Both the position numbers and the translations under genes were made by a program. Below the pieces are notes generated by a model, which did not search any database, was not told the origin of the DNA, and saw only the letters and a list, made by a program, of their open reading frames with translations. This document shows, piece by piece, positions 2,238 through 56,700 of a stretch of DNA of 64,000 nucleotides (position 1 is its first letter; each line of letters begins with the position of its first letter). This stretch comes from a virus, in IMG/VR virus record IMGVR_UViG_3300027917_002335, positions 1 through 64,000 of that record; one strand, written 5' to 3'.

Positions 2238-3267
2238 TTATTTCACCTTTAAATCCTAATTCTTTTGCTTTCTTTGTAAGAGTTTCTTTGTGAACTGAAG
2301 CTGTAATAATAAGAAATGAATTCTCATCTGCTTCTTTTAATATTTCACTGCTGTGGATTTTCATCCCTTTGAATGTCTTTTCTTGCTTTGCTGGAATATC
2401 ATCAACAAGAATTAAATTTAGGTGTTTTAATCTAGTATAAGGATAGAGATACATAAATTCTCTTCCTATTCCCCAGCAATATATTTGACCAGTAACTTTT
2501 AACATAGCTCTTATAAGTGGTAATTTTAATGAACCAATCATTTTTGTTTCTCCTGCTTCAAAATTGATTAATTCAAAACCAAATTTCTGAGCTAATACCT
2601 TTATACCAACTATATTATAATGTTGGATATGTTCACGCATCAAATAAAAATAATCGCTATTATATTTATCTGCATTTGGAACACTTATATAAATAAATCC
2701 TCCTTCCTTTAACACTCTTTTCATTTCCATAAAAGCCTTGTGAGGATCATTTAAATGTTCTAACACTTGATCTAAGATTAACATGTCAAAAGTATTGTCT
2801 TCAAAGGGAATTTCATACACACTTCCAACCTTTATTCTATCCATATTAGCCTTATCTACATATGCTTGTATTGGCTCTATTCCATAAACATTAAACCAAC
2901 CTTTCGTTTCACAGTATTTTATAAATCCACCAAGAGCACAGCCGACATCTAATATCTTACCTTCATATTTTGCATAAGGCAATATGAAATCAAATAATTC
3001 TTCATATCTTTGTTCATTATCAGCTCCTGGTCTATCAGTTACATCATCGTTAGCACTTAAATTTATAGGAGCATATTCTTCTTCATAATATTTTCCAAGA
3101 TTTTCAATTTCTTTCTTACTTAATGAATTAAATATATGACCACAATTTTTGCATTTTCTACTTGTTATATCACTATATAAGAAAGAACCATCAAATTTTT
3201 CACAAGTAAAGAACTTGTACAAATCAGAATAATCTCCACCACATACTGGACAATTCATTTTAACCAT
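2227..3267 (-). CDS. SAM-dependent methyltransferase with N-terminal zinc site
   Basis: Class I methyltransferase. The N-terminal 50 residues hold two CxxC pairs (MNCPVCGG and CKNCGH) as in the sugar C-methyltransferase family with a zinc domain. The SAM-binding motif ILDVGCALGGF lies near residue 103, and the region with LILDQVLEHL matches motif II of class I enzymes. The C-terminal part resembles the nucleotide-binding domain of the same family. In known members the substrate is often a dTDP-keto-sugar, which fits the neighbouring RmlB, but this is inference. Translation may start at the first ATG (3267) or at the ATG three codons later (3258), which has a better spaced upstream purine stretch. 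Confidence 0.78.
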   Translation of the reverse strand: MVKMNCPVCGGDYSDLYKFFTCEKFDGSFLYSDITSRKCKNCGHIFNSLSKKEIENLGKYYEEEYAPINLSANDDVTDRPGADNEQRYEELFDFILPYAKYEGKILDVGCALGGFIKYCETKGWFNVYGIEPIQAYVDKANMDRIKVGSVYEIPFEDNTFDMLILDQVLEHLNDPHKAFMEMKRVLKEGGFIYISVPNADKYNSDYFYLMREHIQHYNIVGIKVLAQKFGFELINFEAGETKMIGSLKLPLIRAMLKVTGQIYCWGIGREFMYLYPYTRLKHLNLILVDDIPAKQEKTFKGMKIHSSEILKEADENSFLIITASVHKETLTKKAKELGFKGEIIDI

Positions 3268-4253
3268 CTTTTATATATTTCTTTTGCCTGAAAGTCTAAA
3301 TCAACAGGCATTCCATGTGATAATTGAGAACAATTACCACAAATTTCATGTGTTTTTCTTAATTTATTTATATGGAATTCTTGATAAAATCTCATTTCAT
3401 CTCCATTCCAAATTTCTTTTACTGATTGTTTATTTACATCTCCTATCTGTAATTCTCTTGCCCAATCAATAAAGCAAGCGCTTACAATACCGTCAGAATT
3501 AATTGACATTTGATAGAAGACATATGGACATACTTCTACTTCATGTATTGGTTGACCATATATTCCAACTTCTTCATTCTGAGGAGGACCATCAAAATTA
3601 TACCAACAATTCATAGTGTGTTCAATGGCTATGCCATCACATATATCTCCAAAGATTTCAAAGAACTTATCTTTCTCTTCTTCATATAAGAAATCACCAT
3701 TAATCTTAATAAATATTTCTAATTGTTTCCTATTCTCGTATAGGTATTTAATATTATTTACTAGTCTATCAAAGTTAATTCTCTTATTAGCAAACTCTAA
3801 ATATTGATCTCCATTTACGCCTTCGATTGAAATGTTAATTCTATCTAAACCTGCTTCCACAATATCTAAACTGGTTTTAGGATTTAACAATGAACCATTT
3901 GTAGTTGTATCTACCGCATTACAGCAACCGCTGAGTTTGGCGTACTTTACCATATCTGCAAACCGTGGATTTGCTAACGGTTCTCCGTGTAAATATAACC
4001 GTAATACTTTTATTGGCTTTTCAAATTCACAAATGTCATCTACAATCTTTTTAAACAGGTCAAATTTCATAAAGGTTTGTGGTCTTCCAACATCATTTAA
4101 TAATGATTTATCTCCAGATGGACAAAACCTACATCTGAAATTACACCAATCGCAAGGATCTACAAATATAACCCAAGGAGTATTAAGAGGAATATTATCT
4201 GCCAATGACTCTCTATTTTCTAATTGAATTCTTGTTTTTATTTTAGCTTTCAT
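3255..4253 (-). CDS. Radical SAM/SPASM domain protein
   Basis: The 4Fe-4S ligands of the radical SAM core are C37, C41 and C44 (CNFRCRFC). The C-terminal region (about 240-310) carries further cysteines with the usual SPASM spacing, including one in a SINSDGIVSACFID context and a final CGNC pair. SPASM enzymes usually modify peptides or proteins, though some act on sugars or alcohols. The gene overlaps its neighbours by 4 to 13 nt inside the glycan block, so either a sugar-modifying or a protein-modifying role is possible. It is distinct from the radical SAM gene at 17964-19067. Confidence 0.85.
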   Translation of the reverse strand: MKAKIKTRIQLENRESLADNIPLNTPWVIFVDPCDWCNFRCRFCPSGDKSLLNDVGRPQTFMKFDLFKKIVDDICEFEKPIKVLRLYLHGEPLANPRFADMVKYAKLSGCCNAVDTTTNGSLLNPKTSLDIVEAGLDRINISIEGVNGDQYLEFANKRINFDRLVNNIKYLYENRKQLEIFIKINGDFLYEEEKDKFFEIFGDICDGIAIEHTMNCWYNFDGPPQNEEVGIYGQPIHEVEVCPYVFYQMSINSDGIVSACFIDWARELQIGDVNKQSVKEIWNGDEMRFYQEFHINKLRKTHEICGNCSQLSHGMPVDLDFQAKEIYKRWLK

Positions 4254-11950: not shown

Positions 11951-13789
11951 TTATCCTACTCCTCTTTGGAGGTTTCTACTTCCTAGGTCAGGTATTTCGT
12001 CGTCAGCTAAATATATATCTTCTTGTTCCCACACTGATTGATCTGACCTTTTAATATAAAGTTCTTTTTGTCTCCATACATTTGGATGTTTCATTATCTC
12101 ATACTCAATACGAGAATAAATAACATTATCTCCAGTTTCTAAAGATTCAAGATAACTTTCAATATTAGCTATTACATCTTCTCTTACTGTAGCAAAATCT
12201 GATAATTCAGTTACATAGATAATACCTTTAATATCTATATCAATTTCTTCTGACTCTAATATTTGGTATTGAATTCCTACTGGACTATATCCTCCGCCAT
12301 CAATATAATCCAATTGACCATCTAACACATCTTTTAGATTCTCAAAACCAAATCCGTCTTCTGGAGATAAAATAACTGTGTAACCAGCACCATTATACCA
12401 ATTTTTAAACATTAAATGTATTCCAGTTGGTTGTTCTTGTGCAACGCCAGACACATATTTATATAAACTATATCTTGAATCTCCTCCACCATAACTTTCA
12501 AGACTTGTTCTAATTTCCCAATAATTTGTAGCAAAGTCTATACCAGTTACACCATCCTCTGGAGGATGACACCATAAATCAAATCTATAAGTTTTAGTTT
12601 TATCCAATCCATTATACTTTAGGTCAAAGTTAATATCTTGAAATCCTGTGAGTCCTGGAATTAAATCAATTTCTTCTATTAAAGTTTCGTCTAAATGTAA
12701 ACCAGTTTGCACAGTGTTTAATCTAATACCACATTTTATTCCTGGTGGTGCATTAACAGCTCTTCCACTTAATGTTATTCTACCTAATGAAAGAACTAAA
12801 TCACCTGGCACAAAAGATTGGCTCCATATTAAACCGTAAGAATCAACTCTTTTCACTGTACCAGTAGTAGGAGAATCCCAATTGAGAACTGAAGTTTGGT
12901 CAACGCCTTTATCTTGATAAACTTTTACTGCTCTGACTCCCTCTATATTTGAAGCTAAATCTTTAACTTTTGCTAAAGTAAATGTTCTATATCTTGCTTC
13001 TAACTGTCTTGCTCTGTAAACATCATCAGATTCTTTATCTGTTCCAGATGTTATATCTTCACTGTTTGTAACAGTTAAGAATGAATATGTAACGCTATTT
13101 GTTATTTCTCCAACTTTTGCATTGCTAACAGCACCAGAAGCAACAGAAGTAACCTCAACCCTTCTTGTAACTTGTCCTTCAACTTCTACATAATATCCTT
13201 CATTCTCAATTATATAACCAGAACTAGCATCGAGCCAATGAATGTTATTGTGATAAGTTTCATCAAACTCCCAAACACTTTCTGGTATTACAGTCAGGTT
13301 TTCTTTTAGAACTTGAACTACGCTTTGGGCATAAGGATAATCACTTGAAAAATAATCATAAGATTCTCCAGTTTTACTTTTAGTTCCTTGAATTCTATAT
13401 GGAATATAAGAATCTTCATCTGCCAAATAAGAATTAAGAGATGACCTAAATTCTGCTCCTTGTGCAATTAAAATTGGTGCTCCATTTATTGTTGCTGTAC
13501 AATCGACATATCCTTCAGCATGTGTAGCACCTCTTCGAGGCATTCCATTTTCTATTCCATGTTTATCAAGCCAAGTACCAACAGCTTGTCTTATAGACAT
13601 TTGTTCTGCTGCTGTTTCTAAAAGTGTTTCATAATAAAATTCGTCAAGGCTGTGAATCTTCATTTGTTGCCAAAGCCAAGAACTAGGAGTAAAGTTAACT
13701 ACATCCATTATATCTTTTGCTTTTTCTTCATAGTCTTCTATAATTTCTTTTGCGCTTCTTGGAGTAAATCCATCATCATTATACGGCAT
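11951..13789 (-). CDS. Baseplate J-like protein
   Basis: Homologue of the Mu gp47/P2 gpJ baseplate wedge family. Signs are an N-terminus ending in QAVGTWLDKHG, the central VTSVASGAVSNAKVGEI, and SGTDKESDDVYRARQLEARY followed by the IEGVRAVKVYQDKG segment. A beta-rich insertion of about 170 residues (roughly 320-490) sits inside the last third, and the C-terminal VREDVIANIESYLESLETGD is usual for the family. Its product joins with gp25/W to form wedges of the contractile baseplate. Confidence 0.88.
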   Translation of the reverse strand: MPYNDDGFTPRSAKEIIEDYEEKAKDIMDVVNFTPSSWLWQQMKIHSLDEFYYETLLETAAEQMSIRQAVGTWLDKHGIENGMPRRGATHAEGYVDCTATINGAPILIAQGAEFRSSLNSYLADEDSYIPYRIQGTKSKTGESYDYFSSDYPYAQSVVQVLKENLTVIPESVWEFDETYHNNIHWLDASSGYIIENEGYYVEVEGQVTRRVEVTSVASGAVSNAKVGEITNSVTYSFLTVTNSEDITSGTDKESDDVYRARQLEARYRTFTLAKVKDLASNIEGVRAVKVYQDKGVDQTSVLNWDSPTTGTVKRVDSYGLIWSQSFVPGDLVLSLGRITLSGRAVNAPPGIKCGIRLNTVQTGLHLDETLIEEIDLIPGLTGFQDINFDLKYNGLDKTKTYRFDLWCHPPEDGVTGIDFATNYWEIRTSLESYGGGDSRYSLYKYVSGVAQEQPTGIHLMFKNWYNGAGYTVILSPEDGFGFENLKDVLDGQLDYIDGGGYSPVGIQYQILESEEIDIDIKGIIYVTELSDFATVREDVIANIESYLESLETGDNVIYSRIEYEIMKHPNVWRQKELYIKRSDQSVWEQEDIYLADDEIPDLGSRNLQRGVG

Positions 13790-14201: not shown

Positions 14202-14227
14202 TTATATTGTTTTTAAAGTTTATAAAG
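14202..14227 (-). promoter_or_regulatory. Late promoter copy 1, before baseplate operon
   Basis: On the minus strand this reads CTTTATAAACTTTAAAAACA followed by ATATAA. The TATA box TTTATAAA lies at the upstream end and the motif is nearly identical to those at 33910-33935 and 45857-45882. The upstream part overlaps the stop codon of the sulfotransferase gene. The baseplate W start is 45 nt downstream. Confidence 0.7.
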
Positions 14228-14903
14228 TTATGTATTTTTTTATTTTTGTTTTAGTATCCATGTGTTTAATACTTCTCATAACATTCCACAATTCTTTATA
14301 TACATCAAAAGGAACATCAATAAAATCAGCAATCTTCTTCATTTCTGTATCAAAATCATTCATTAAATCGTGGAAGTTAATTCTTAAAACCAATTCTTTA
14401 GGATACTCAGCCAAAAACTCTTCTTCTTTCTTTTCTTTTAACACATTCCAAAATACAACAGTTTTATAATCTTTTGGTACAAAACCAAATTCATCTATAA
14501 AAATTTGCTGAAATGCTTTTGATTTTGAAACCAGATTCTTCCATAATCCATCTTCCCATATTTTTATATGAGAATTTATTCTTTCCATTAAAGGTCTATC
14601 CAATTTTATTATCTTACTATTTGGATATATTTTTATAAATTCTTTAATAAGAAAGATTAATTCTGGACATTTACATATTTCCCATTTATATTTTGGTATA
14701 ATTTTATCCATGTTAATTTTAGGGTATTTGAACCATAAATTCATTCTAACTTCTGGTGGTTCAGAATCGTGTGTATGTAACGACCATAAACCCCAATTAA
14801 GTAATCCTGTTAATAAGAGACATTTATGAACTAAACTTGTTGCTGCTCTACTACCTAATATAATTATCTTATCCTTCCTTAAATTTCTTGTCCATTTAGT
14901 CAA
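14220..14903 (-). CDS. Sulfotransferase-like protein
   Basis: A 227-residue P-loop protein. KIIILGSRAATSLVHKCLLL (residues 12-31) corresponds to the PAPS 5'-phosphosulfate loop, and SKIIKLDRPLMERINSHIKI fits the strand and helix that bind the 3'-phosphate. The C-terminal helix (EMKKIADFIDVPFDVYKELW) is usual in sulfotransferases. The start is TTG with a GAGATGAG site. It is the last gene of the inserted modification block. Target unknown; a tail protein or glycan is likely given the location. Confidence 0.62.
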   Translation of the reverse strand: MTKWTRNLRKDKIIILGSRAATSLVHKCLLLTGLLNWGLWSLHTHDSEPPEVRMNLWFKYPKINMDKIIPKYKWEICKCPELIFLIKEFIKIYPNSKIIKLDRPLMERINSHIKIWEDGLWKNLVSKSKAFQQIFIDEFGFVPKDYKTVVFWNVLKEKKEEEFLAEYPKELVLRINFHDLMNDFDTEMKKIADFIDVPFDVYKELWNVMRSIKHMDTKTKIKKYITL

Positions 14904-15597
14904 TTAACAAACTCATCTCTGTAATAAAATTTTGTATAAATTCGGCGCTATCAAAATCTTGTATTAATTCGTCTAAACCTACAACATCAGTGTCTATGTC
15001 ACCAAACACATAATTGTCTATTCCTTGCCTTCCCATCACATTAACTCTATAAGCATGATATTCATTATCTGGTAATATTGTTTTCATCATTTCTCTATCT
15101 ACATGAAAAAATATATCACTATGAACAGCCATAATCTTATTTGGTATTCCGTTATCAATTACCCACCCAAATAGTTTATCATTTTGTGTTTTTAATCCAT
15201 AGGCTTTATCTTCTACTCCTAAGACAGCATCTTTTCTTATAAGTATATCACAAGGAATACTATAATGTTTTTCAAGAGTATTTTTAACAGCTTGAAAACC
15301 TAATCCTTTCCCCTTTCTATGGAAAACAGCCCAAGAGAAATTCATAGGTTGGTATATCATCGTTTCTGCTTTTATATTTGGAGTATTTATGACATAGGCA
15401 TCATAAGAACCTGCTTGGAAGGTGCTGTTTTTACATTTAAATATTATTGGTTTTGTATGCCATTGATTATAACTAAATCTACCTATTAAATGGCTATCTT
15501 CATAACCAGCTCCAGTTCTTATTCCACTCATTACATTTTTTATTTCAAATAAATCAAAAAATACATCCTGTTGCGATTCGTTTATTTTAACTCTCAT
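14896..15597 (-). CDS. Unrecognised protein in modification block
   Basis: A 233-residue protein with no family I can name with confidence. It lies between two sulfotransferase genes and overlaps both, so it is probably part of the same pathway. The second half (IRKDAVLGVEDKAYGLKTQN and then NKIMAVHSDIFFHVDREMM) has a loose resemblance to the lipoate/biotin ligase fold, where a lysine-bearing strand is followed by an HxxIxxxxD segment, but the diagnostic RRxTGGG motif is missing. Treat that as a weak suggestion only. Confidence 0.5.
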   Translation of the reverse strand: MRVKINESQQDVFFDLFEIKNVMSGIRTGAGYEDSHLIGRFSYNQWHTKPIIFKCKNSTFQAGSYDAYVINTPNIKAETMIYQPMNFSWAVFHRKGKGLGFQAVKNTLEKHYSIPCDILIRKDAVLGVEDKAYGLKTQNDKLFGWVIDNGIPNKIMAVHSDIFFHVDREMMKTILPDNEYHAYRVNVMGRQGIDNYVFGDIDTDVVGLDELIQDFDSAEFIQNFITEMSLLID

Positions 15598-16189
15598 TTA
15601 TTTTCACAATATTTTCTTCATTAAGGTAATTTTTCCAATCACCTATTATTCCTTTTCTACTACAAGGTATTAAACCTATGCTTTCCATAGGCTTAAATCT
15701 TTCACAAACCTTATTTATTTCTTCATCAGTTTTGTGAACATTAAGAAAATTCAACACTTTCTTTATTGTATCATTTAAATTATTCCACATATCTTCATAA
15801 TGAATTAACAAATAGTTAGGATGTTTAAATTCATTATACATTTTCCATTGTGTAACTGTGAAATCAAATAATTGCTTGTCTTCTGATATCTTTCTATTCA
15901 TAAAACTTTCATCTCTTTCCATCTCTACACTATAAATGTACCATATTTTAGATACAAATATATCTTTTAATTCTCTGGTTAAAGAGATTACCTTTGCAAA
16001 TTCACATAAATCTTTTGGATTAACCCAATGACATCTAACTCTTTTGTGCTCTTCTAATAACTTTTTTATATTATCTGGATTTTGTTCTCTTACTGTGATA
16101 GGAATAAATTTAAATTTTAATAAAGATCTTAATATATGGTTTAACCAATTAGAACCGACTCTCATTTGTGTTGATATTATATATTCCAT
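15587..16189 (-). CDS. PAPS-dependent sulfotransferase
   Basis: Clear member of the sulfotransferase family. After the start MEYIISTQMRVGSNWLNHIL the STQMRVGSNWL loop fits the 5'-phosphosulfate binding site, SLTRELKDIFVSKIWY fits the 3'-phosphate strand, LLIHYEDM the core strand, and RKGIIGDWKNYL near the end matches the RKGxxGDWKxxF motif of cytosolic sulfotransferases. The ATG at 16189 is chosen because GGAGC precedes it and an upstream in-frame start has none. It transfers sulfate from PAPS to a hydroxyl or amine; the acceptor is not known. Confidence 0.85.
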   Translation of the reverse strand: MEYIISTQMRVGSNWLNHILRSLLKFKFIPITVREQNPDNIKKLLEEHKRVRCHWVNPKDLCEFAKVISLTRELKDIFVSKIWYIYSVEMERDESFMNRKISEDKQLFDFTVTQWKMYNEFKHPNYLLIHYEDMWNNLNDTIKKVLNFLNVHKTDEEINKVCERFKPMESIGLIPCSRKGIIGDWKNYLNEENIVKINES

Positions 16190-16191
16190 TA

Positions 16192-16617
16192 CTATGCTCC
16201 ATATAATATTTCTCTTATTGCATCTATTCTTGCTTGGCATTCTTCCAAATTTTCAACATTACAATCGTGGCAGAGTATATTTAATTCATTCAATCTTGTA
16301 TGAGTTTCATCGTCTAAACCCATAACAATTGTATATCCACAATCATTAAACCAGTCTTCATCTTCCCTATTTCTTACTTGTGGGAAATCTCTACATATAT
16401 CTGGTCTATTTTCATATATATTACATACCGCCAATCCTTCAGCATCAAAACTTAAGTGTTCACAAGGTTTTCTTGTGCCACCAAGTTCTGGTCTTTTATC
16501 TAAGAAATAACAACACTTACCACATCTTTTACAACTTCCTGTTATGATAAATGGATTATTATCTTTAACCATATCATAAAATTCTTGTATTTTTAAAGGA
16601 CATTCTTTTATCGGCAA
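16192..16617 (-). CDS. YkgJ-family CxxCxxCC protein, copy 2
   Basis: Belongs to the zinc- or iron-chelating YkgJ family (PF03692 type). The motif GSCKRCGKCCYF is at residues 27-38, followed by PCEHLSF, CNIYENRPDICRDFP and a CGY near residue 98, and two more cysteines near the end. Flagellin lysine methylase FliB belongs to the same broad family, so protein methylation is one option; metal chelation is another. The start appears to be TTG with an AGAGGA site. It is paralogous to the next gene upstream (16608-17048). Confidence 0.75.
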   Translation of the reverse strand: MPIKECPLKIQEFYDMVKDNNPFIITGSCKRCGKCCYFLDKRPELGGTRKPCEHLSFDAEGLAVCNIYENRPDICRDFPQVRNREDEDWFNDCGYTIVMGLDDETHTRLNELNILCHDCNVENLEECQARIDAIREILYGA

Positions 16618-17048
16618 TTTTGTAATATATCCTCTATTAATTCTATTCTTAATTTACAAGCTTCTTGATATTTTTGAGTTGGACAGAAATAACATTTTAA
16701 ATTTAATCTGTCTAATGCTTCTTGTTTTTCTAATTCAATATTTGCTCTAAATGTATAACCACAATCTTTATACCACTCTTTATCTTCTTCTGTTTTGTAT
16801 GGTAAAACTGGATGATCTTTACAATTCTGTGGTCTTGTTTTATATATTAAACACACCGCTGTATTACCATCATATCTAAGAAACTCACAAGGTACTCTTT
16901 CTCTTGTTTCCCTATTTATTATAAAATGACAACATTTACCACATCTATTACACTGTCCTTCTCTCATAAATGGATTATTATCTCTTACCATTTCATAATG
17001 TTTTTGTGGATCTACTTCCAATCCATTTCTTAATTTCATTAACACCAT
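16608..17048 (-). CDS. YkgJ-family CxxCxxCC protein, copy 1
   Basis: Paralogue of the downstream gene. EGQCNRCGKCCHF (about residues 30-42) gives the CxxCxxCC core, followed by PCEFLRYD, CLIYKTRPQNCKDHP and CGYTFRA. A tail with CYFCPTQKYQEACKLRI adds three cysteines. Its ATG overlaps the stop codon of the cysteine-repeat protein as TAATG, so the two are probably made together. This coupling suggests a role in metal supply or covalent modification linked to the cysteine-repeat protein or other virion proteins. Confidence 0.75.
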   Translation of the reverse strand: MVLMKLRNGLEVDPQKHYEMVRDNNPFMREGQCNRCGKCCHFIINRETRERVPCEFLRYDGNTAVCLIYKTRPQNCKDHPVLPYKTEEDKEWYKDCGYTFRANIELEKQEALDRLNLKCYFCPTQKYQEACKLRIELIEDILQNCR

Positions 17049-17998
17049 TAGTTATACTCACAACTACACACTTTATCACAGCTACATTCATTGTAACAAT
17101 CACAATCATCATCACAGGTACAATCTGTATTACATCCACAGCCTTGTGATTGACAGGTACATTGATTTTCACAACTACAGTAACCATATTTATTACAACT
17201 ACAATCTAAGCATGTCATCCAACAAACATAATTTAAATCACAGCCACAGTCGGTATTACACCCACAACCTTGAGCTTCGCAAGTACATGCTTCTGTGTTA
17301 CAATCACACTCATTACCACAACTACTATAATATGTGTTGCAGTCACAGTCATTGCCACAATCATTGTCACATAAACATCCTTCGTCTTCGCAAGTACATT
17401 GTGATTCACAGGTACATTGGAATTCACAGGTACATACTAAAGCACAGTGACCAGAACATCCACATATATCTATATTACACGCACAGGAATAATCGTCACA
17501 ACCACAGACAGTATCACATCCACAACCTTCTGCTTGACAGGTACATTGAGCCTCACAATTACAGTAACCAAAACAAGTACAATCGTCATCACAACCACAT
17601 ACCAAATCACAAGAACAGCTGTAAGTTTGACTATATGTATCGCAATCACATTGAGCTACCAGATTATCTATATCAGCATCAATCTCATTTATGTTAACGG
17701 CAGTAATCTCATCACCTGCATCGTGATCACCTGAAGATGCCGTAAGAGACAATGTTGTTCCTGTTTTAGTTGTATCTCCTGCGTCACGATCACCATCTGC
17801 TTCACAATAACAATGATGAGCATTAATAAGAGAATTCTGAGAAATCATATCTTTAAATTTTTGACCCAAAATTTCAGCATCAGCACTGACACTACCTATA
17901 TCGGTGAGTCCAACTCCCCTACCATTTTCCTCGTTGTTAATTTTAGTGATAATTGCGTTAATATCACTGGCAGTTATTTCGTTGTCTTGGGTTACCAT
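17048..17998 (-). CDS. Cysteine-repeat (CxC) protein, about 60 cysteines
   Basis: A 316-residue protein with a striking layout. Residues 1-110 hold two related EITAxxINxI segments (EITASDINAIITKIN and EITAVNINEIDADIDN) and two GDxDAGD stretches, resembling virion-anchoring N-termini. From about residue 115 to the end, 59 cysteines occur almost entirely as CxC pairs spaced by 2-5 residues, often as CTCxxxGCGCxTxCxCD repeated at least four times, with many D, E, N and Q and almost no lysine. No signal peptide is seen. Its start lies inside the end of the radical SAM gene (35-nt overlap) and it has almost no ribosome site, which suggests coupled translation. Likely the substrate of the adjacent radical SAM enzyme; structural virion use is inferred. 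Confidence 0.85.
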   Translation of the reverse strand: MVTQDNEITASDINAIITKINNEENGRGVGLTDIGSVSADAEILGQKFKDMISQNSLINAHHCYCEADGDRDAGDTTKTGTTLSLTASSGDHDAGDEITAVNINEIDADIDNLVAQCDCDTYSQTYSCSCDLVCGCDDDCTCFGYCNCEAQCTCQAEGCGCDTVCGCDDYSCACNIDICGCSGHCALVCTCEFQCTCESQCTCEDEGCLCDNDCGNDCDCNTYYSSCGNECDCNTEACTCEAQGCGCNTDCGCDLNYVCWMTCLDCSCNKYGYCSCENQCTCQSQGCGCNTDCTCDDDCDCYNECSCDKVCSCEYN

Positions 17999-19067
17999 CG
18001 CTAATATTATATTTGCGTTTTAATTCTTCTATTGCTCTTGATAATTCAGTAAACATTATATTGTATTTTGCGTTTTGATAATACACAGTATTGCTTGTTT
18101 GAATATTTGTGGCAGGACACCACATAAACCATGGAATTTTAAATCCTTTTTGTAAATCTGTAATTGAAGAATACATTTTTTCTTCTTCTTTCAATCTCGA
18201 ATAAGAATTATACTGTTTGTAATTTTTGAATTCTTTTGGCTTATATACATTACCTAATTTATAATTTTCTCTTTCTGGTACAGTTGCTAAACGATGACAA
18301 GGATATATATCAAAATTTTCATCAATTGCTAATAAACTAGTACCAGCACCGCAAGACGCACCAATTCTGTTAAATAAAGACGATAATGTTGTAATCTTTT
18401 CTTTATATGTGAAATCTGGAAGTTTCATAATCATTTCTGTAAATTTATAGAACTGTTCAATAATAATATCTACATCCTTATCATCCCAATCTTCTTCAAA
18501 TATAACTTGAATTGTGTTTTGTCTTAGATGTTTTGTAGCTTCTTCCTTACTTTGTAACCTATATATTTTAAAAAACCAAAATAAAGATTCTGCTAAATAA
18601 GGTAATGTTTCTTTTGTGCAAACTCCGTGAATAGACCAAGGAACTTTATGCTTAATACAAGCAGATATTCCTTTTATAATATCATCAAAAGTTCCTCTTC
18701 CATTTGCATACTTTCTATTAATATCATTAACATGTCTTGGTCCATCGACACTTATTTGCATGTGTAAACCAAGTTCTTTAATCTTTTCTATATATTTAGG
18801 AATAAGAACGCCGTTTGTTATAAGATTCTCTTTAATAAGTTTTTTCTTATGTTCATCTGCAGTTTCTAATATCTTTTCTAATAATTCCAATCGTAATAAT
18901 GGTTCACCACCAAAAGGAAAGAACGCTGTAAAACAACCTTCTTCAACATATTTTCTAAATTTTTCAACATCCATATTTCCATTATATTTATGTTCAAAGC
19001 AATATTTACACCTTAAATTACATTTACCTGTAAGCATTACATCTGGACAATTAATATGAAACATCAT
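17964..19067 (-). CDS. Radical SAM protein-modifying enzyme (anSME/SPASM-like)
   Basis: C16, C20 and C23 (CNLRCKYCF) bind the catalytic cluster, FPFGGEPLL near residue 50 is the GGE motif that contacts SAM, and ENLITNGVLI plus LHMQISVDGPRHVND follow in the order seen in anaerobic sulfatase-maturating and peptide-maturase enzymes. Further cysteines near residues 250-275 (GASCGAG, YPCHRLA) and 325 (FMWCPATN) could bind auxiliary clusters as in SPASM or twitch domains. A GGAGGT site precedes the double ATG. It directly overlaps the cysteine-repeat gene and a degenerate partner, so it is probably the maturase of that protein. The chemistry (thioether, oxidation or other) is not shown by sequence. 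Confidence 0.85.
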   Translation of the reverse strand: MMFHINCPDVMLTGKCNLRCKYCFEHKYNGNMDVEKFRKYVEEGCFTAFFPFGGEPLLRLELLEKILETADEHKKKLIKENLITNGVLIPKYIEKIKELGLHMQISVDGPRHVNDINRKYANGRGTFDDIIKGISACIKHKVPWSIHGVCTKETLPYLAESLFWFFKIYRLQSKEEATKHLRQNTIQVIFEEDWDDKDVDIIIEQFYKFTEMIMKLPDFTYKEKITTLSSLFNRIGASCGAGTSLLAIDENFDIYPCHRLATVPERENYKLGNVYKPKEFKNYKQYNSYSRLKEEEKMYSSITDLQKGFKIPWFMWCPATNIQTSNTVYYQNAKYNIMFTELSRAIEELKRKYNISDGNPRQRNNCQ

Positions 19068-19969
19068 TTTAATATACCTCCTATAAATTTTGTTATATAA
19101 GCCTCTTCAACAAAATTACCCATTATTTTCTTATTCTGATAGAAATCTGTAAGACCATCAAAATCCTTTTTCATATCTATATAACTTCTAAGAATGTTAA
19201 GCTCTTTAAAGGGAACTTCATTTCCATTGTGTTTATAGTGTTTTGCTAAGTCAAACAACATATCTCCTTCTTCAAACGCTTGTTTAGTCACATATAATTT
19301 GAAATCTCTTGATACGAATATTGTCTTCCCTTTTCTTCTATAATACATCATTGGTTGCTTATTCTTTTTATTCTTCTTATCCATAGAACTTATTTTCCAT
19401 ATATTTAACTGGCGCAACCAAAATTCTAATTTGTGTAATTCTTCAATTGTCATTTTATCAAAGGATTCATAATCAAAATTTATTTTAAAGAATCTATAAC
19501 CAAGTTTCATATAGATTTCTATAATCTTTATAACTGACTCTTCAAAGTTGTCGTAATTAATATTGGTTTCAATCCATAAAGGATTAGACCGTGTCCAAGA
19601 TAAGAATGATTCTATAATGTGTAAATCAAATCTGTTTATTTCTATGTCGTCTGTTGTTGTTATACTAAACCTTTTATTTTTTATTGGTTTGCTTCTATCA
19701 AAAAATGTTTCTAATAAATCTGGCTTAATAAGCAAATTAAAATTTGTCATTTCACACATATAATTTTCTGCAGCCAATTTTACAAATACATCTATTTCTT
19801 CAAAAGTTTTAACAGGAAGATTAATTATAACTTGTTTCGTTAGAGTTATTGTGTCTTTCTTTAAACATTCTGTAAATGTTTTGAAGTTTTCGAATTCTAT
19901 TTCTTTAAAGGCGTTTAGTATATCTTTAGAATTAAATAAATCCTTAATAAAAAGTTGTCTTTCTATCAT
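19064..19969 (-). CDS. Possible degenerate radical-SAM-like partner protein
   Basis: A 301-residue protein with no CxxxCxxC motif and only two cysteines in all. The middle (RFSITTTDDIEINRFDLHII, then WIETNINYDNFEESV and YRFFKINFDYESF) looks like the later half of a radical SAM barrel as seen in SPASM enzymes, and GKTIFVSRDFKLYV could correspond to a SPASM-like strand. This resemblance is by eye and weak. It overlaps both neighbours by 4 nt in the form ATGA. A role as substrate-binding partner of the radical SAM enzyme is an inference from position and shape. Confidence 0.5.
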   Translation of the reverse strand: MIERQLFIKDLFNSKDILNAFKEIEFENFKTFTECLKKDTITLTKQVIINLPVKTFEEIDVFVKLAAENYMCEMTNFNLLIKPDLLETFFDRSKPIKNKRFSITTTDDIEINRFDLHIIESFLSWTRSNPLWIETNINYDNFEESVIKIIEIYMKLGYRFFKINFDYESFDKMTIEELHKLEFWLRQLNIWKISSMDKKNKKNKQPMMYYRRKGKTIFVSRDFKLYVTKQAFEEGDMLFDLAKHYKHNGNEVPFKELNILRSYIDMKKDFDGLTDFYQNKKIMGNFVEEAYITKFIGGILK

Positions 19970-21141
19970 AATACTTTAACCCAATGTCTATCGTTAACCC
20001 AAACACCTCGGGTTTTAATTTTTGTTTCTTTAAACATATATTTAGCAATTGCTTTTTGCATAATAATCTCTTCTTTTGTTGCTTTAGTTAACCATCCTTT
20101 TTCATTTGGAACTAATAAGTCTCCTGCTTCATATACTTCGTCAACATGAGCTAATAAGAAACCACCAATTGAAATTGGAACGGCTCTTTGTTTAGAACCA
20201 ACAGCATGTCCATAAGTATCAGAACAAATACCAATACAAGCCTTGTCAGCTCTTTTACTAGTTATCCTCAATCCTTTCTTATTAAGAGAATAACAATATC
20301 CTGGTAATTTTGAAACACCTACTTCGGCTTTCCAATAATCTGCGTAGTCGTTATATACTGCGTTATAAACTCTGGTTGCATAGAAATAACCATCATAATT
20401 TAATCTTGTGGTGTTTGTTGGGTCAGTTGAACCAGCATATAAATATGCGCTAGTTTTAGTTGTTCCAGCAATTTTTAATATTCCACTTAAATCAAGTGTG
20501 CCTTCTGCCTCAACAGCACTTACTGCTTCTGAATCAGCATATCTTACATGATGAGCACTTGTTGGAGCATCACTTAAATTTGCGTGTGCTCTTGTTGCTA
20601 AATCAGCTAAACTTGAGCCTGTCTTATCTAAATCGCTCCAAGGTAAACTACCAAAATGAACACCTGAAGCAGTTGTTAAGGCGTGAGAAGATGGTGCAAA
20701 TTCAGATGGTTTATTTGCTAAGTCTCCCCAATTTAAATAACCTGCATTAAAATCATCACCATCTGCTTTCAACACAAGACCAGATGTATAAGCAATGTTA
20801 CCTACATCTGATAAATCTGTTAAAGAGCCAACAACTCCTCCTCCTCCACCATACAGAGAAAACCAAAGACCAGAAGCTTGATGCCATCCATAAATACCAG
20901 AAGCATCTATTCTTATTTTATTATGATTATATAATCCAATTTCTACTTTTTGAACACCGCCATTAGCTCCACCCAATCTCCAATATGGATCAAGAGTAGA
21001 AATATGACTTCCATAGTCTATTGTTTTCCAATTAGGATCAATATAATTACCAGAAGCATATCCACCTAAGAACAATCCAACCCATACCATTGGATTTGCT
21101 TCATTGAATCGGCTTCCGCCTTTAATATAAAATGTTGACAT
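19966..21141 (-). CDS. Tail fibre with C-terminal peptidase-G2-like chaperone domain
   Basis: A 391-residue virion protein. The first 110 residues form a beta-rich anchor, residues 110-230 contain short hydrophilic fibre-like repeats (LSDVGN, LANKPSEF, LSDAPTSA), and the last 140 residues match the intramolecular chaperone/autoprotease domain of phage appendages: NDYADYWKAE, then RADKACIGICSDTYGHAVGS and ISIGGFLLAHVDEVYEAGDL. Such domains trimerise the fibre and may cleave themselves off. It lies right after the hub/spike gene and right before the modification block, so it is a candidate substrate of those enzymes. Confidence 0.7.
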   Translation of the reverse strand: MSTFYIKGGSRFNEANPMVWVGLFLGGYASGNYIDPNWKTIDYGSHISTLDPYWRLGGANGGVQKVEIGLYNHNKIRIDASGIYGWHQASGLWFSLYGGGGGVVGSLTDLSDVGNIAYTSGLVLKADGDDFNAGYLNWGDLANKPSEFAPSSHALTTASGVHFGSLPWSDLDKTGSSLADLATRAHANLSDAPTSAHHVRYADSEAVSAVEAEGTLDLSGILKIAGTTKTSAYLYAGSTDPTNTTRLNYDGYFYATRVYNAVYNDYADYWKAEVGVSKLPGYCYSLNKKGLRITSKRADKACIGICSDTYGHAVGSKQRAVPISIGGFLLAHVDEVYEAGDLLVPNEKGWLTKATKEEIIMQKAIAKYMFKETKIKTRGVWVNDRHWVKVL

Positions 21142-43317: not shown

Positions 43318-44958
43318 TTAAGGATTGTTAAAATTTCTGTCTGTGCTTTGAAACACAGGTATACTTTGATTTGAGCTACTAAGAGTAGCACCAAATCTTA
43401 TGTACTCATAATCTATGTGAAGGACAGTTACCCATATGTCTATGTCTCCTGTCCAATTATAATTGTATTGAAAACTTGTACCTGAATTTTCAATACCATC
43501 TATTTCAGAATTGTCAGATTTCTTAATTAATCTAACTTCTGAATTTGCTATTAAATCTGTAAGTGCAAATGTTACTGGAGTAACAAAATAAACTGTTCCA
43601 GTTCCAGTTGCTGTGAATGAAGAAGCATTTGAAGTTCCAACATTGTTGACTGTTAAATCTCCAGATGCTGCTGTGAAATAAACATCTTTTGTGTTGTCGA
43701 TAAATATTAAATCGTTATAATCAACTTCTTCGGAAACGGTATGTCTAATTGCGTATCCATTGTTAATGAATTTAGAGTCTTGAATGCTTAAATCCATATT
43801 GGTGTACCATAACAACGAACCATTAGAACTTGCGGTGTTTGAAAAGATTGTGTTTCGTATTTGTCCTGCGTATCCATTCATATCTACTTCTTCGCAATTG
43901 TCGAATACGCAACTGAATATATCTACATTTGAATTATCAATGAAGTAAACATAGCCATCTATTCCGAAAAATTTAGTGTTATATAAGAGAACATATGAAC
44001 TTGAATTTGTTAAATTGCTACAATCGTAATAACAAGAAACATCAAGATTTCCCTCAAATGTGCTTCCATTTCGACCAGAATCAGTTCCTACTATAATTCC
44101 GTCAGTGTGTCTCGTGTAATAACTTCCATTATCTTCGTAATCAATTCCAAGGTAATTGTCATTAACCATTGGAGTCCAAGCAGAACTGTACCAATATACT
44201 GTTCTTATGAATTGAAAGTTTTTGCCAGAATCGGTTAAAACTGTGTTTGCTATTTGATCTGTGTCTCCTATTGTTAATTTTCCCATTGAATAAATAATTT
44301 TATTAGAATCGTCGTATTGTATCATTCCCCAAGCTCTAGTTGCGTAGGCAGTACAATAATCTGCCGCATCAAATAATCCGTCAGTATCTGTTCCAGTAAC
44401 TTGTATTCCATAGCCAACAGCTATGGTATCTATCATTACATTTTGAGTCTTTGAATTTGCTGTAGTCTCTATATGTATCCCTACCCAATTTATAGCTCCA
44501 ATATCACAACCGCCACCATTAGTTCTTGTTGGTGTAGTTGTAGGATCGAGAGCAAAACAAACAAAGCCTCCTTTCTTTCCTCTGAAGTTTCTTAGATCAT
44601 CGTAGCCAGCTATTGTCCAGTCAGACCAAACCGTTGAACCAGAATAAAGTCTAATACATAAACCGTAATTTGCTACACTTTCTAAAATACCTAAAGTAGT
44701 ACATCCAATCCACATAAATAATAGTTGCCCTTCGTCTGCTCCAGATGTGTCGAAATCTAAATTTCTTCCAAATTCTGTTGCAACATCGCAGTAGAGTTCA
44801 CCAGCTTTGTTTGATGCTTGTGCTGAGACACAGTAAGAACCTTGAAGATAGAAATCTCCTTCTTGAGTTTCAGAACCGATAGTTACTGTGTTCCAATTGG
44901 TTGTTGTTTCCGCGTTAGTAATAACGCCAGTTCCATTAATAGTTACTGTTAGAGCCAT
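43318..44958 (-). CDS. Virion protein with beta-helix core
   Basis: A 546-residue protein. The first 200 residues look like a jelly roll; residues 280-430 have the rung pattern of a parallel beta-helix (for example YDCSNLTNSSSYVLLYNTKF, IDNSNVDIFSCVFDNC, IRNTIFSNTASSN, IQDSKFINNGYAI). The C-terminal 70 residues form an Ig-like strand set. Likely a surface or fibre protein of the virion. Confidence 0.6.
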   Translation of the reverse strand: MALTVTINGTGVITNAETTTNWNTVTIGSETQEGDFYLQGSYCVSAQASNKAGELYCDVATEFGRNLDFDTSGADEGQLLFMWIGCTTLGILESVANYGLCIRLYSGSTVWSDWTIAGYDDLRNFRGKKGGFVCFALDPTTTPTRTNGGGCDIGAINWVGIHIETTANSKTQNVMIDTIAVGYGIQVTGTDTDGLFDAADYCTAYATRAWGMIQYDDSNKIIYSMGKLTIGDTDQIANTVLTDSGKNFQFIRTVYWYSSAWTPMVNDNYLGIDYEDNGSYYTRHTDGIIVGTDSGRNGSTFEGNLDVSCYYDCSNLTNSSSYVLLYNTKFFGIDGYVYFIDNSNVDIFSCVFDNCEEVDMNGYAGQIRNTIFSNTASSNGSLLWYTNMDLSIQDSKFINNGYAIRHTVSEEVDYNDLIFIDNTKDVYFTAASGDLTVNNVGTSNASSFTATGTGTVYFVTPVTFALTDLIANSEVRLIKKSDNSEIDGIENSGTSFQYNYNWTGDIDIWVTVLHIDYEYIRFGATLSSSNQSIPVFQSTDRNFNNP

Positions 44959-45445
44959 TTATTAATTCCTCTAAAAATTTTACTAAATGTCTATCTTCTC
45001 TTTGGTTCCATTTATCTACAATTTCGTTGTATTCTAATCGATCTTTTCGCCATTCTAAGGCTAAATTTTTTATATCAAATTCTTCACCTTTTCCAATTCC
45101 TGGACAAGAATTATCCCAAATTATTTGTTCTGTGAAACCGTCTTCATATTCTATAAAAATTGGATTGCAAGGATACATTCGACAGGCAGTTGGACGGTAT
45201 TTATGAACAGAGCATTTATTATCTTTTAAGAAAATACATTGCTGATTTAAATGTTTTAAGATGAGAACTCCTTCGTAATCATTTCCTTTGACGAGTTTGC
45301 CTTTAGGATTATAAGAAAAAGGTACAAAGTCGATGCATTCAAATATGTTTGTGATTTCTGATAAGCGTTGAATGTCTCTTTTAGTTAGAGCAACAATTTT
45401 CTTTTTGCAACAAGAATCTTCACACATTTGACATTCAAACTTCAT
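44936..45445 (-). CDS. YkgJ-family CxxCxxxCC protein, copy 3
   Basis: A third CxxCxxCC-type protein, 169 residues. FECQMCEDSCC at residues 3-13 gives the N-terminal cysteine cluster, followed by CIFLKDNKCSVHKYRPTACR and YPCNP and a late SCPG. It differs from the pair at 16192-17048 in spacing and in length. It lies between the small-terminase-like gene and a beta-helix virion protein, and overlaps both. Confidence 0.72.
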   Translation of the reverse strand: MKFECQMCEDSCCKKKIVALTKRDIQRLSEITNIFECIDFVPFSYNPKGKLVKGNDYEGVLILKHLNQQCIFLKDNKCSVHKYRPTACRMYPCNPIFIEYEDGFTEQIIWDNSCPGIGKGEEFDIKNLALEWRKDRLEYNEIVDKWNQREDRHLVKFLEELINGSNSNY

Positions 45446-56629: not shown

Positions 56630-56700
56630 GGGAGAGTAGTTTAAAGGTAGAACAGACAGCGTGAGAGCTGTTAACGAGGGCTCAATTCCCTCCTCTCCCA
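56630..56700 (+). tRNA. tRNA-like gene with non-standard anticodon arm
   Basis: Acceptor GGGAGAG/CUCUCCC, D-arm GUUUAAAGGUAGAAC and T-arm GAGGG-CUCAAUU-CCCUC are good. The anticodon arm GACAG...CUGUU leaves an 8-nt loop (CGUGAGAG) with a 3-nt variable loop, or a 6-nt loop if a C-G pair is added. The anticodon could be GAG (if U33 is kept) or GUG, and neither can be fixed. T54 is C. It could be a diverged or degenerate tRNA or one that reads a shifted frame. Confidence 0.6.

Follow-up and report, generated by a model that had tools for sequence, protein, structure and literature searches.

Why should a tailed phage carry a radical S-adenosylmethionine (SAM) gene interlocked with a gene for a protein of about 60 cysteines? 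This arrangement lies in the window, by which we mean the whole stretch of 64,000 nucleotides analyzed here (positions 1 to 64,000 of IMG/VR record IMGVR_UViG_3300027917_002335, a 99.5-kb record from a tailed phage). On the minus strand, a cassette at 19969-16192 encodes, in order, a partner protein, a radical SAM enzyme, a CxC-array protein and two CxxCGxCC proteins, joined through short overlaps. A first-pass annotation had described a protein of some 60 cysteines whose gene overlaps that of a CxxxCxxC radical SAM enzyme, and this description holds: the array protein has 61 cysteines, its ATG falls within the radical SAM gene (an overlap of 35 nt) and the radical SAM frame is intact. We consider it probable that the cassette is a phage-encoded system, resembling those that make ribosomally synthesized and post-translationally modified peptides (RiPPs), that matures a structural protein, with the cysteine array being part of, or attached to, a tail fibre. 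This reading is built on the observed gene pairing and its recurrence, the fold and relatives of the enzyme, the match between array type and enzyme type and, in related arrays, purifying selection and fusion to Peptidase_S74.

To what extent does the pairing recur? Homology scans of IMG/VR that used either the radical SAM enzyme or the CxC protein as a single query returned no matches, a plain CxCx3 DNA pattern recovered low-complexity repeats only, and the window motif, run against 84,980 cellular genomes, gave no convincing homologue. A motif-based DNA scan, by contrast with these, found the same gene set (partner, radical SAM enzyme, CxC protein and CxxCGxCC protein) in another virus, L127/L148 (L-numbers label the viral loci or records compared with the window). 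The L148 enzyme is 47% identical to that of the window, its CxC protein has 42 cysteines and its genes overlap in the same way; in L189/L190, partner, enzyme and array are again found together. Scanning viral contigs with a radical SAM profile yielded 40 loci and about 14 independent groups with a cysteine array near a radical SAM gene, with repeat units that are unrelated between groups (CNCNYSC, CDCDARTAV, CNSRT, CDCDRC and CxxxC types such as CTGSC). Arrays accounted for 17 of 155 genes at most two genes away from a radical SAM gene, compared with 11 of 648 genes further away; the former figure is inflated by near-identical loci, the gene caller missed the L148 array, and the more distant cysteine-rich genes include additional arrays in L156 and L162. 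One phage carries five consecutive cysteine-array genes (15, 54, 55, 35 and 57 cysteines; L162:9-5797) upstream of two radical SAM genes.

We also ran the scan in reverse, using an array motif blind to radical SAM genes. Radical SAM genes were present in 42 of 46 array records, that of Campylobacter phage CP220 among them, compared with 2 of 40 arbitrary viral control records, a contrast that serves as a guide and not as an exact odds ratio because the control records are mostly shorter. All radical SAM genes in array loci lie on the array strand (154:0). The coupling of enzyme and CxC protein proposed in the first-pass annotation is thus supported, and the pattern it had named as contrary evidence, arrays mostly standing without a radical SAM gene, is not what we observed.

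The array type further tracks the enzyme subfamily. Beside CxC arrays, PapB was the top-scoring model for 11 of the 11 radical SAM enzymes scanned, and TIGR04115 for five of six beside CxxxC/CxxC arrays; in a quick tree of the enzymes, one change separates the two kinds. An enzyme that acts on the array would be expected to vary with it in this way.

The window enzyme (17964-19067, minus strand; 367 aa) is a radical SAM maturase whose SPASM-like C-terminal region is reduced. It scores 68.9 bits against PF04055 (cut-off 29.5), within the radical SAM superfamily, and has the cluster motif C16xxxC20xxC23 and a GGEP at residues 53-56; its gene is preceded by a strong ribosome site, AGGAGG. Its top NCBIfam model is the PapB ranthipeptide maturase, NF047865 (E = 4.6e-38), ahead of TIGR04115 (E = 4e-23), and at 131.3 bits against a curated cut-off of 340 it is a relative of the PapB equivalog, not a member. 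A profile search of solved structures ranked CteB first (E = 2.7e-18) and the anaerobic sulfatase maturase anSME next. An AlphaFold (AF2) model built on 16 array-linked radical SAM sequences (pLDDT 81, pTM 0.82) had radical SAM enzymes as its top PDB folds, with CteB again first (E = 4.5e-16, TMq 0.70), followed by anSME, ChlB and TigE. These nearest solved relatives place the window enzyme among modifiers of peptides and proteins and not among enzymes acting on small molecules, the other outcome that the first-pass annotation had named as contrary evidence. Invariant in all 16 array-linked enzymes are the cluster triad C16/C20/C23 and three further cysteines, C239, C257 and C317; their consensus includes a CxxC...CxxC set, the SPASM ligands that are missing from the window, L148 and L190 enzymes.

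The array protein (17048-17998, minus strand; 316 aa) consists of a helical-motif region (residues 1-116), the array itself (residues 117-313, with 28 CxC pairs in the protein) and a C-terminal CSCEYN; a CxCEYN terminus is common to the array proteins of the window, L148 and L190. The array contains four copies of the repeat motif CTCxxxGCxC[ND]xxC, which is absent from 100 dinucleotide-shuffled versions of the window. In CxC arrays generally, a spacing of 2 alternates with longer intervals, and CxC is mostly followed by N or D; CxC is wholly absent from CxxxC arrays. For another array, four related copies differ at up to 17 nucleotides yet by at most one amino acid, and nucleotide change with almost no amino-acid change indicates that such arrays are selected as protein.

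The link to tail fibres comes from related arrays. Peptidase_S74 (PF13884), which serves trimeric tail fibres as a self-cleaving chaperone, directly follows the array at scores above the Pfam cut-off in L204, L205, L236 and L242, and in L171 it is the next open reading frame (ORF). SDxxLK, with which the S74 domain begins, follows 22 of 39 distinct arrays. At L171:11788-12086 and from L223:1087 onward, S74 is split: the array ORF ends after SDxxLKxxIxY(I/M), and the remaining domain is a separate downstream ORF. From the segment preceding S74-linked arrays, we built a 34-residue profile that excludes the cysteine array. It matches the window protein (E = 1.7e-4) as well as L148, L190, L152 and L154, its top eight matches are all cysteine-array proteins, and among all window ORFs it picks the array protein. 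The window protein therefore shares a pre-array helical segment with S74-fused arrays, the feature by which we describe a phage cysteine-array fibre superfamily here.

Modules related to that of the window occur in cultured phages of Campylobacter, Salmonella and Erwinia, and nothing points to the archaeal host that the first-pass annotation had envisaged. In Campylobacter phage CP220, gp140 is an array protein (35 cysteines, CDCNYCTC repeats) adjoining the RNA ligase/tail fibre attachment gene, with the radical SAM protein gp136 encoded nearby. Timms et al. 2010 described 11-12 radical SAM genes in CP220 and CPt10, judged them highly unusual and suggested metabolic roles; a 21-bp repeat within a coding sequence was noted, and cysteine is unmentioned in the main text (PMC2853527). 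Two related CP220 proteins with CxxC every five residues and 27 cysteines each (L195:24206-24574 and L197:38106-38528) form a different cysteine-rich family, one of them encoded less than 1 kb from a radical SAM gene. In Seoulvirus SEGD1 and Erwinia phage phiEaH2, CxxxC-array ORFs of 134, 127 and 155 aa lie just upstream of two radical SAM genes and adjoin a virion structural protein gene. These jumbo-phage genes (L192:5488-5889 in KU726251; L193:3090-3470 and 3416-3880 in NC_019929) are absent from the GenBank annotation, which omits them or, in SEGD1, places other-frame ORFs there.

The cassette itself is flanked by a tail-fibre-like gene and a baseplate wedge gene. The former (19966-21141, minus strand; 391 aa) lies directly upstream of the partner gene and encodes a weak Peptidase_G2-like C-terminal region (PF11962, E = 0.049, below cut-off; phrog_15949, E = 6e-5); in L149, a gene of this kind (PF11962, E = 1.6e-6) is the neighbour of the radical SAM gene. 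The latter (11951-13789, minus strand) encodes a J-like baseplate wedge subunit (phrog_6, E = 1.2e-44), and its proximity places the cassette inside the tail module. The partner (19064-19969, minus strand; 301 aa) overlaps both the radical SAM gene and the tail-fibre-like gene by 4 nt. It has no cysteine motif; a homologue of 33% identity is encoded beside the enzyme and array in L148, and further homologues lie near them in L189/L190. The suggestion that it is a degenerate radical SAM protein can be discarded: hhalign detects no similarity (probability 0.1-0.3%) and no family matches. Its AF2 model is too poor for use (pLDDT 43.7), and a PDB search with that model was uninformative.

The first-pass annotation had proposed a three-gene unit, and three overlapping genes are indeed present; the unit is larger, with two CxxCGxCC proteins following at 16192-17048. 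Protein 1 (16608-17048, minus strand; 146 aa; 1-nt overlap with the array gene) resembles the YcgN family (E = 8e-5) and PF03692 below cut-off (15.2 bits against 23), with a homologue in the matching position of L148. Protein 2 (16192-16617, minus strand; 141 aa) is likewise PF03692-like, at 22.7 bits alone (cut-off 23) and 28.1 bits with its neighbours in frame. We rejected these proteins as a general part of the cassette: they are confined to the window and L148 lineage, and other matches to the motif are antisense to arrays. They carry the PF03692-type motif of an Fe-S-binding family with which the flagellin lysine methylase FliB (CX4CX3CC) has been compared, a likeness at motif level only; FliB, a cysteine-rich [4Fe-4S] protein, acts on a surface filament (PMC8598068). 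A third protein of this sort, with CxxCxxCC (44936-45445, minus strand; PF03692, 35.9 bits), overlaps a neighbouring gene far from the cassette.

Other features of the window were recorded alongside. Two sulfotransferase-like genes and one gene of no assigned function lie between the CxxCGxCC and baseplate genes (14220-16240, minus strand), and sulfation of fibre or host glycans is a possible role for the former. A second radical SAM protein (3255-4253, minus strand), best matched by a tungsten-cofactor-maturase-like model and unrelated to the array enzyme, is encoded next to a methyltransferase-like gene with a glycosyltransferase-like gene near. A tRNA-like gene (56630-56700, plus strand), whose 2-base anticodon is unreadable, stands beside a tRNA-Ala.

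How might such a cassette work? We propose that the radical SAM/SPASM-type enzyme would bind the array protein, probably through the folded N-terminal region, which would serve as both leader and attachment domain. The enzyme would then oxidize many cysteines in the CxC[D/N/E] repeats, most likely tying them to nearby residues through Cys-to-carbon thioether cross-links, the chemistry of PapB and CteB. Stapled covalently in this way, the array would form a stiff rod or tip belonging to the tail fibre or attached to it. The partner and the CxxCGxCC proteins would be lineage-specific helpers in substrate delivery or in Fe-S or electron supply; as a guess, the CxxCGxCC proteins may supply electrons or perform a second modification. 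PapB accepts Cys-Xn-Asp with n = 0-6, provided that the cysteine precedes the acceptor (PMC9413430), and this tolerance suits CxC[D/N] arrays.

Several observations weigh against this proposal. Four array records show no radical SAM gene, all of them fragments of one virus type, and general late-gene co-transcription could partly underlie the pairing. Of the SPASM ligands, the C-terminal region of the window enzyme retains only C239, C257 and C317, as do those of L148 and L190, and thus lacks the full auxiliary-cluster set. The L148 array has few acidic residues, which speaks against a strict PapB-type Cys-Asp/Glu linkage as the general pattern and rules it out for arrays as a whole. S74 (PF13884) is absent from the window array protein and from its whole record, so a fibre role for this protein is one that we infer. 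The earlier suggestion of a virion protein is nonetheless supported as probable, and the array protein would be present in the virion of the window phage.

The main rival, which we regard as unlikely, is that the array is a metal-binding fibre segment with cysteine in place of histidine: CxC pairs of three chains would hold iron or zinc along a trimeric needle, with the radical SAM enzyme doing something else to the fibre or acting on only part of the array. A counterpart is the tip of T4 gp37, where HxH pairs coordinate metal. Both CxC and CxxC are known as metal-ligand motifs, the cysteine spacing is regular (2/4 or 2/3), S74 fusion implies a trimer, and in the window an iron-binding-type CxxCGxCC family follows the array. 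What this model leaves unexplained is the radical SAM gene beside nearly every array, at the frequencies given above, and the change of enzyme subfamily with array type.

Rather improbable, in our estimate, is a scheme in which the enzymes act on a glycan or on some other part of the fibre, with the array held by post-lysis disulfides. It draws on the sulfotransferase genes near the window cassette and on glycosyltransferase-like or nucleotide-sugar genes in other array loci. These accompanying genes vary, whereas the cysteine array is the constant, recurrent neighbour of the radical SAM gene, and the top matches of the enzyme by both sequence and fold are peptide and protein maturases.

Still less probable is that the array protein is the precursor of a secreted RiPP, an antimicrobial or superinfection-exclusion peptide, and no part of the virion. 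Phages do carry accessory genes, and the family descriptions of the PapB, CXXX and SCIFF relatives give RiPP precursors as their substrates; the S74 fusions and tail-gene neighbours speak for a virion part instead, the array proteins are 130-550 aa long across loci with a shared folded N-terminal region, and we noticed no protease or exporter in the immediate cassette. A soluble metallothionein-like or thiol-buffer protein with a radical SAM neighbour by chance, suggested by the very high cysteine content, is largely refuted by the recurrent pairing, the S74 fusion in relatives and the lack of any metallothionein match in Pfam/NCBIfam-type family searches.

The preferred reading, thioether maturation of a fibre-associated array, joins features of several known systems. 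The window cassette shares with PapB/freyrasin (NF047865) an enzyme family that is top-ranked for the window and for all scanned CxC-array enzymes, repeated cysteine sites in the substrate and an adjacent substrate gene. It differs in its score (131 bits against 340), its reduced SPASM ligands, its phage tail context and its substrate, a 316-aa protein with CxC units as opposed to six CX3D units. The CXXX-repeat system (TIGR04115 maturase, TIGR04114/TIGR04117 targets, TIGR04119) likewise combines a radical SAM enzyme with a cysteine-repeat target. Some phage CxxxC arrays weakly match TIGR04114 (E = 0.006, 17 bits against a cut-off of 20), and their enzymes resemble TIGR04115 (in L152, E = 3e-87 and 293 bits against a cut-off of 350). 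The window array, unlike that system, is of CxC type, matches no NCBIfam model, the TIGR04114 target model included, and stands in a phage tail context beside an enzyme closer to PapB. The thioether maturase CteB, of the SCIFF system (PDB 5wgg), is the top solved structure by sequence and fold; identity is about 20%, the CteB substrate is a short six-cysteine peptide, and the match starts near CteB residue 102, the part of CteB before that point having no counterpart in the window enzyme. Finally, S74 tail fibres and endosialidases resemble the system in that S74 directly follows several related CxC arrays, the window protein differing in having no S74 domain.

Radical SAM peptide maturation is known from bacterial RiPPs, including cysteine-repeat peptides, and the kind of enzyme is thus known. 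The open-access literature that we searched yielded nothing relevant on phage radical SAM enzymes with cysteine arrays: no tail-fibre substrate from a virus, no CxC class, no distribution across phages and no report of S74 fibres with cysteine arrays or radical SAM maturases. To our knowledge, the window protein and its relatives would, if the proposal is true, be the first virion proteins matured by radical SAM chemistry.

Together, these results suggest a link between radical SAM peptide maturation and viral tail fibres. Each substrate has dozens of cysteines, and the two types of array go with different subfamilies of the enzyme. To the broader claim, that a widespread class of tailed phages builds fibres with a radical-SAM-made, multiply thioether-linked cysteine-array shaft or tip, we give about even weight. 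If true, it would offer natural enzymes for stapling long repetitive proteins, supply a reason for fibre toughness and correct jumbo-phage annotation where array genes were missed or called in the wrong frame. It would also go some way towards explaining the dozen or so radical SAM genes in Campylobacter phages, since at least gp136, with its array gp140, would have a testable explanation different from the metabolic roles suggested earlier.

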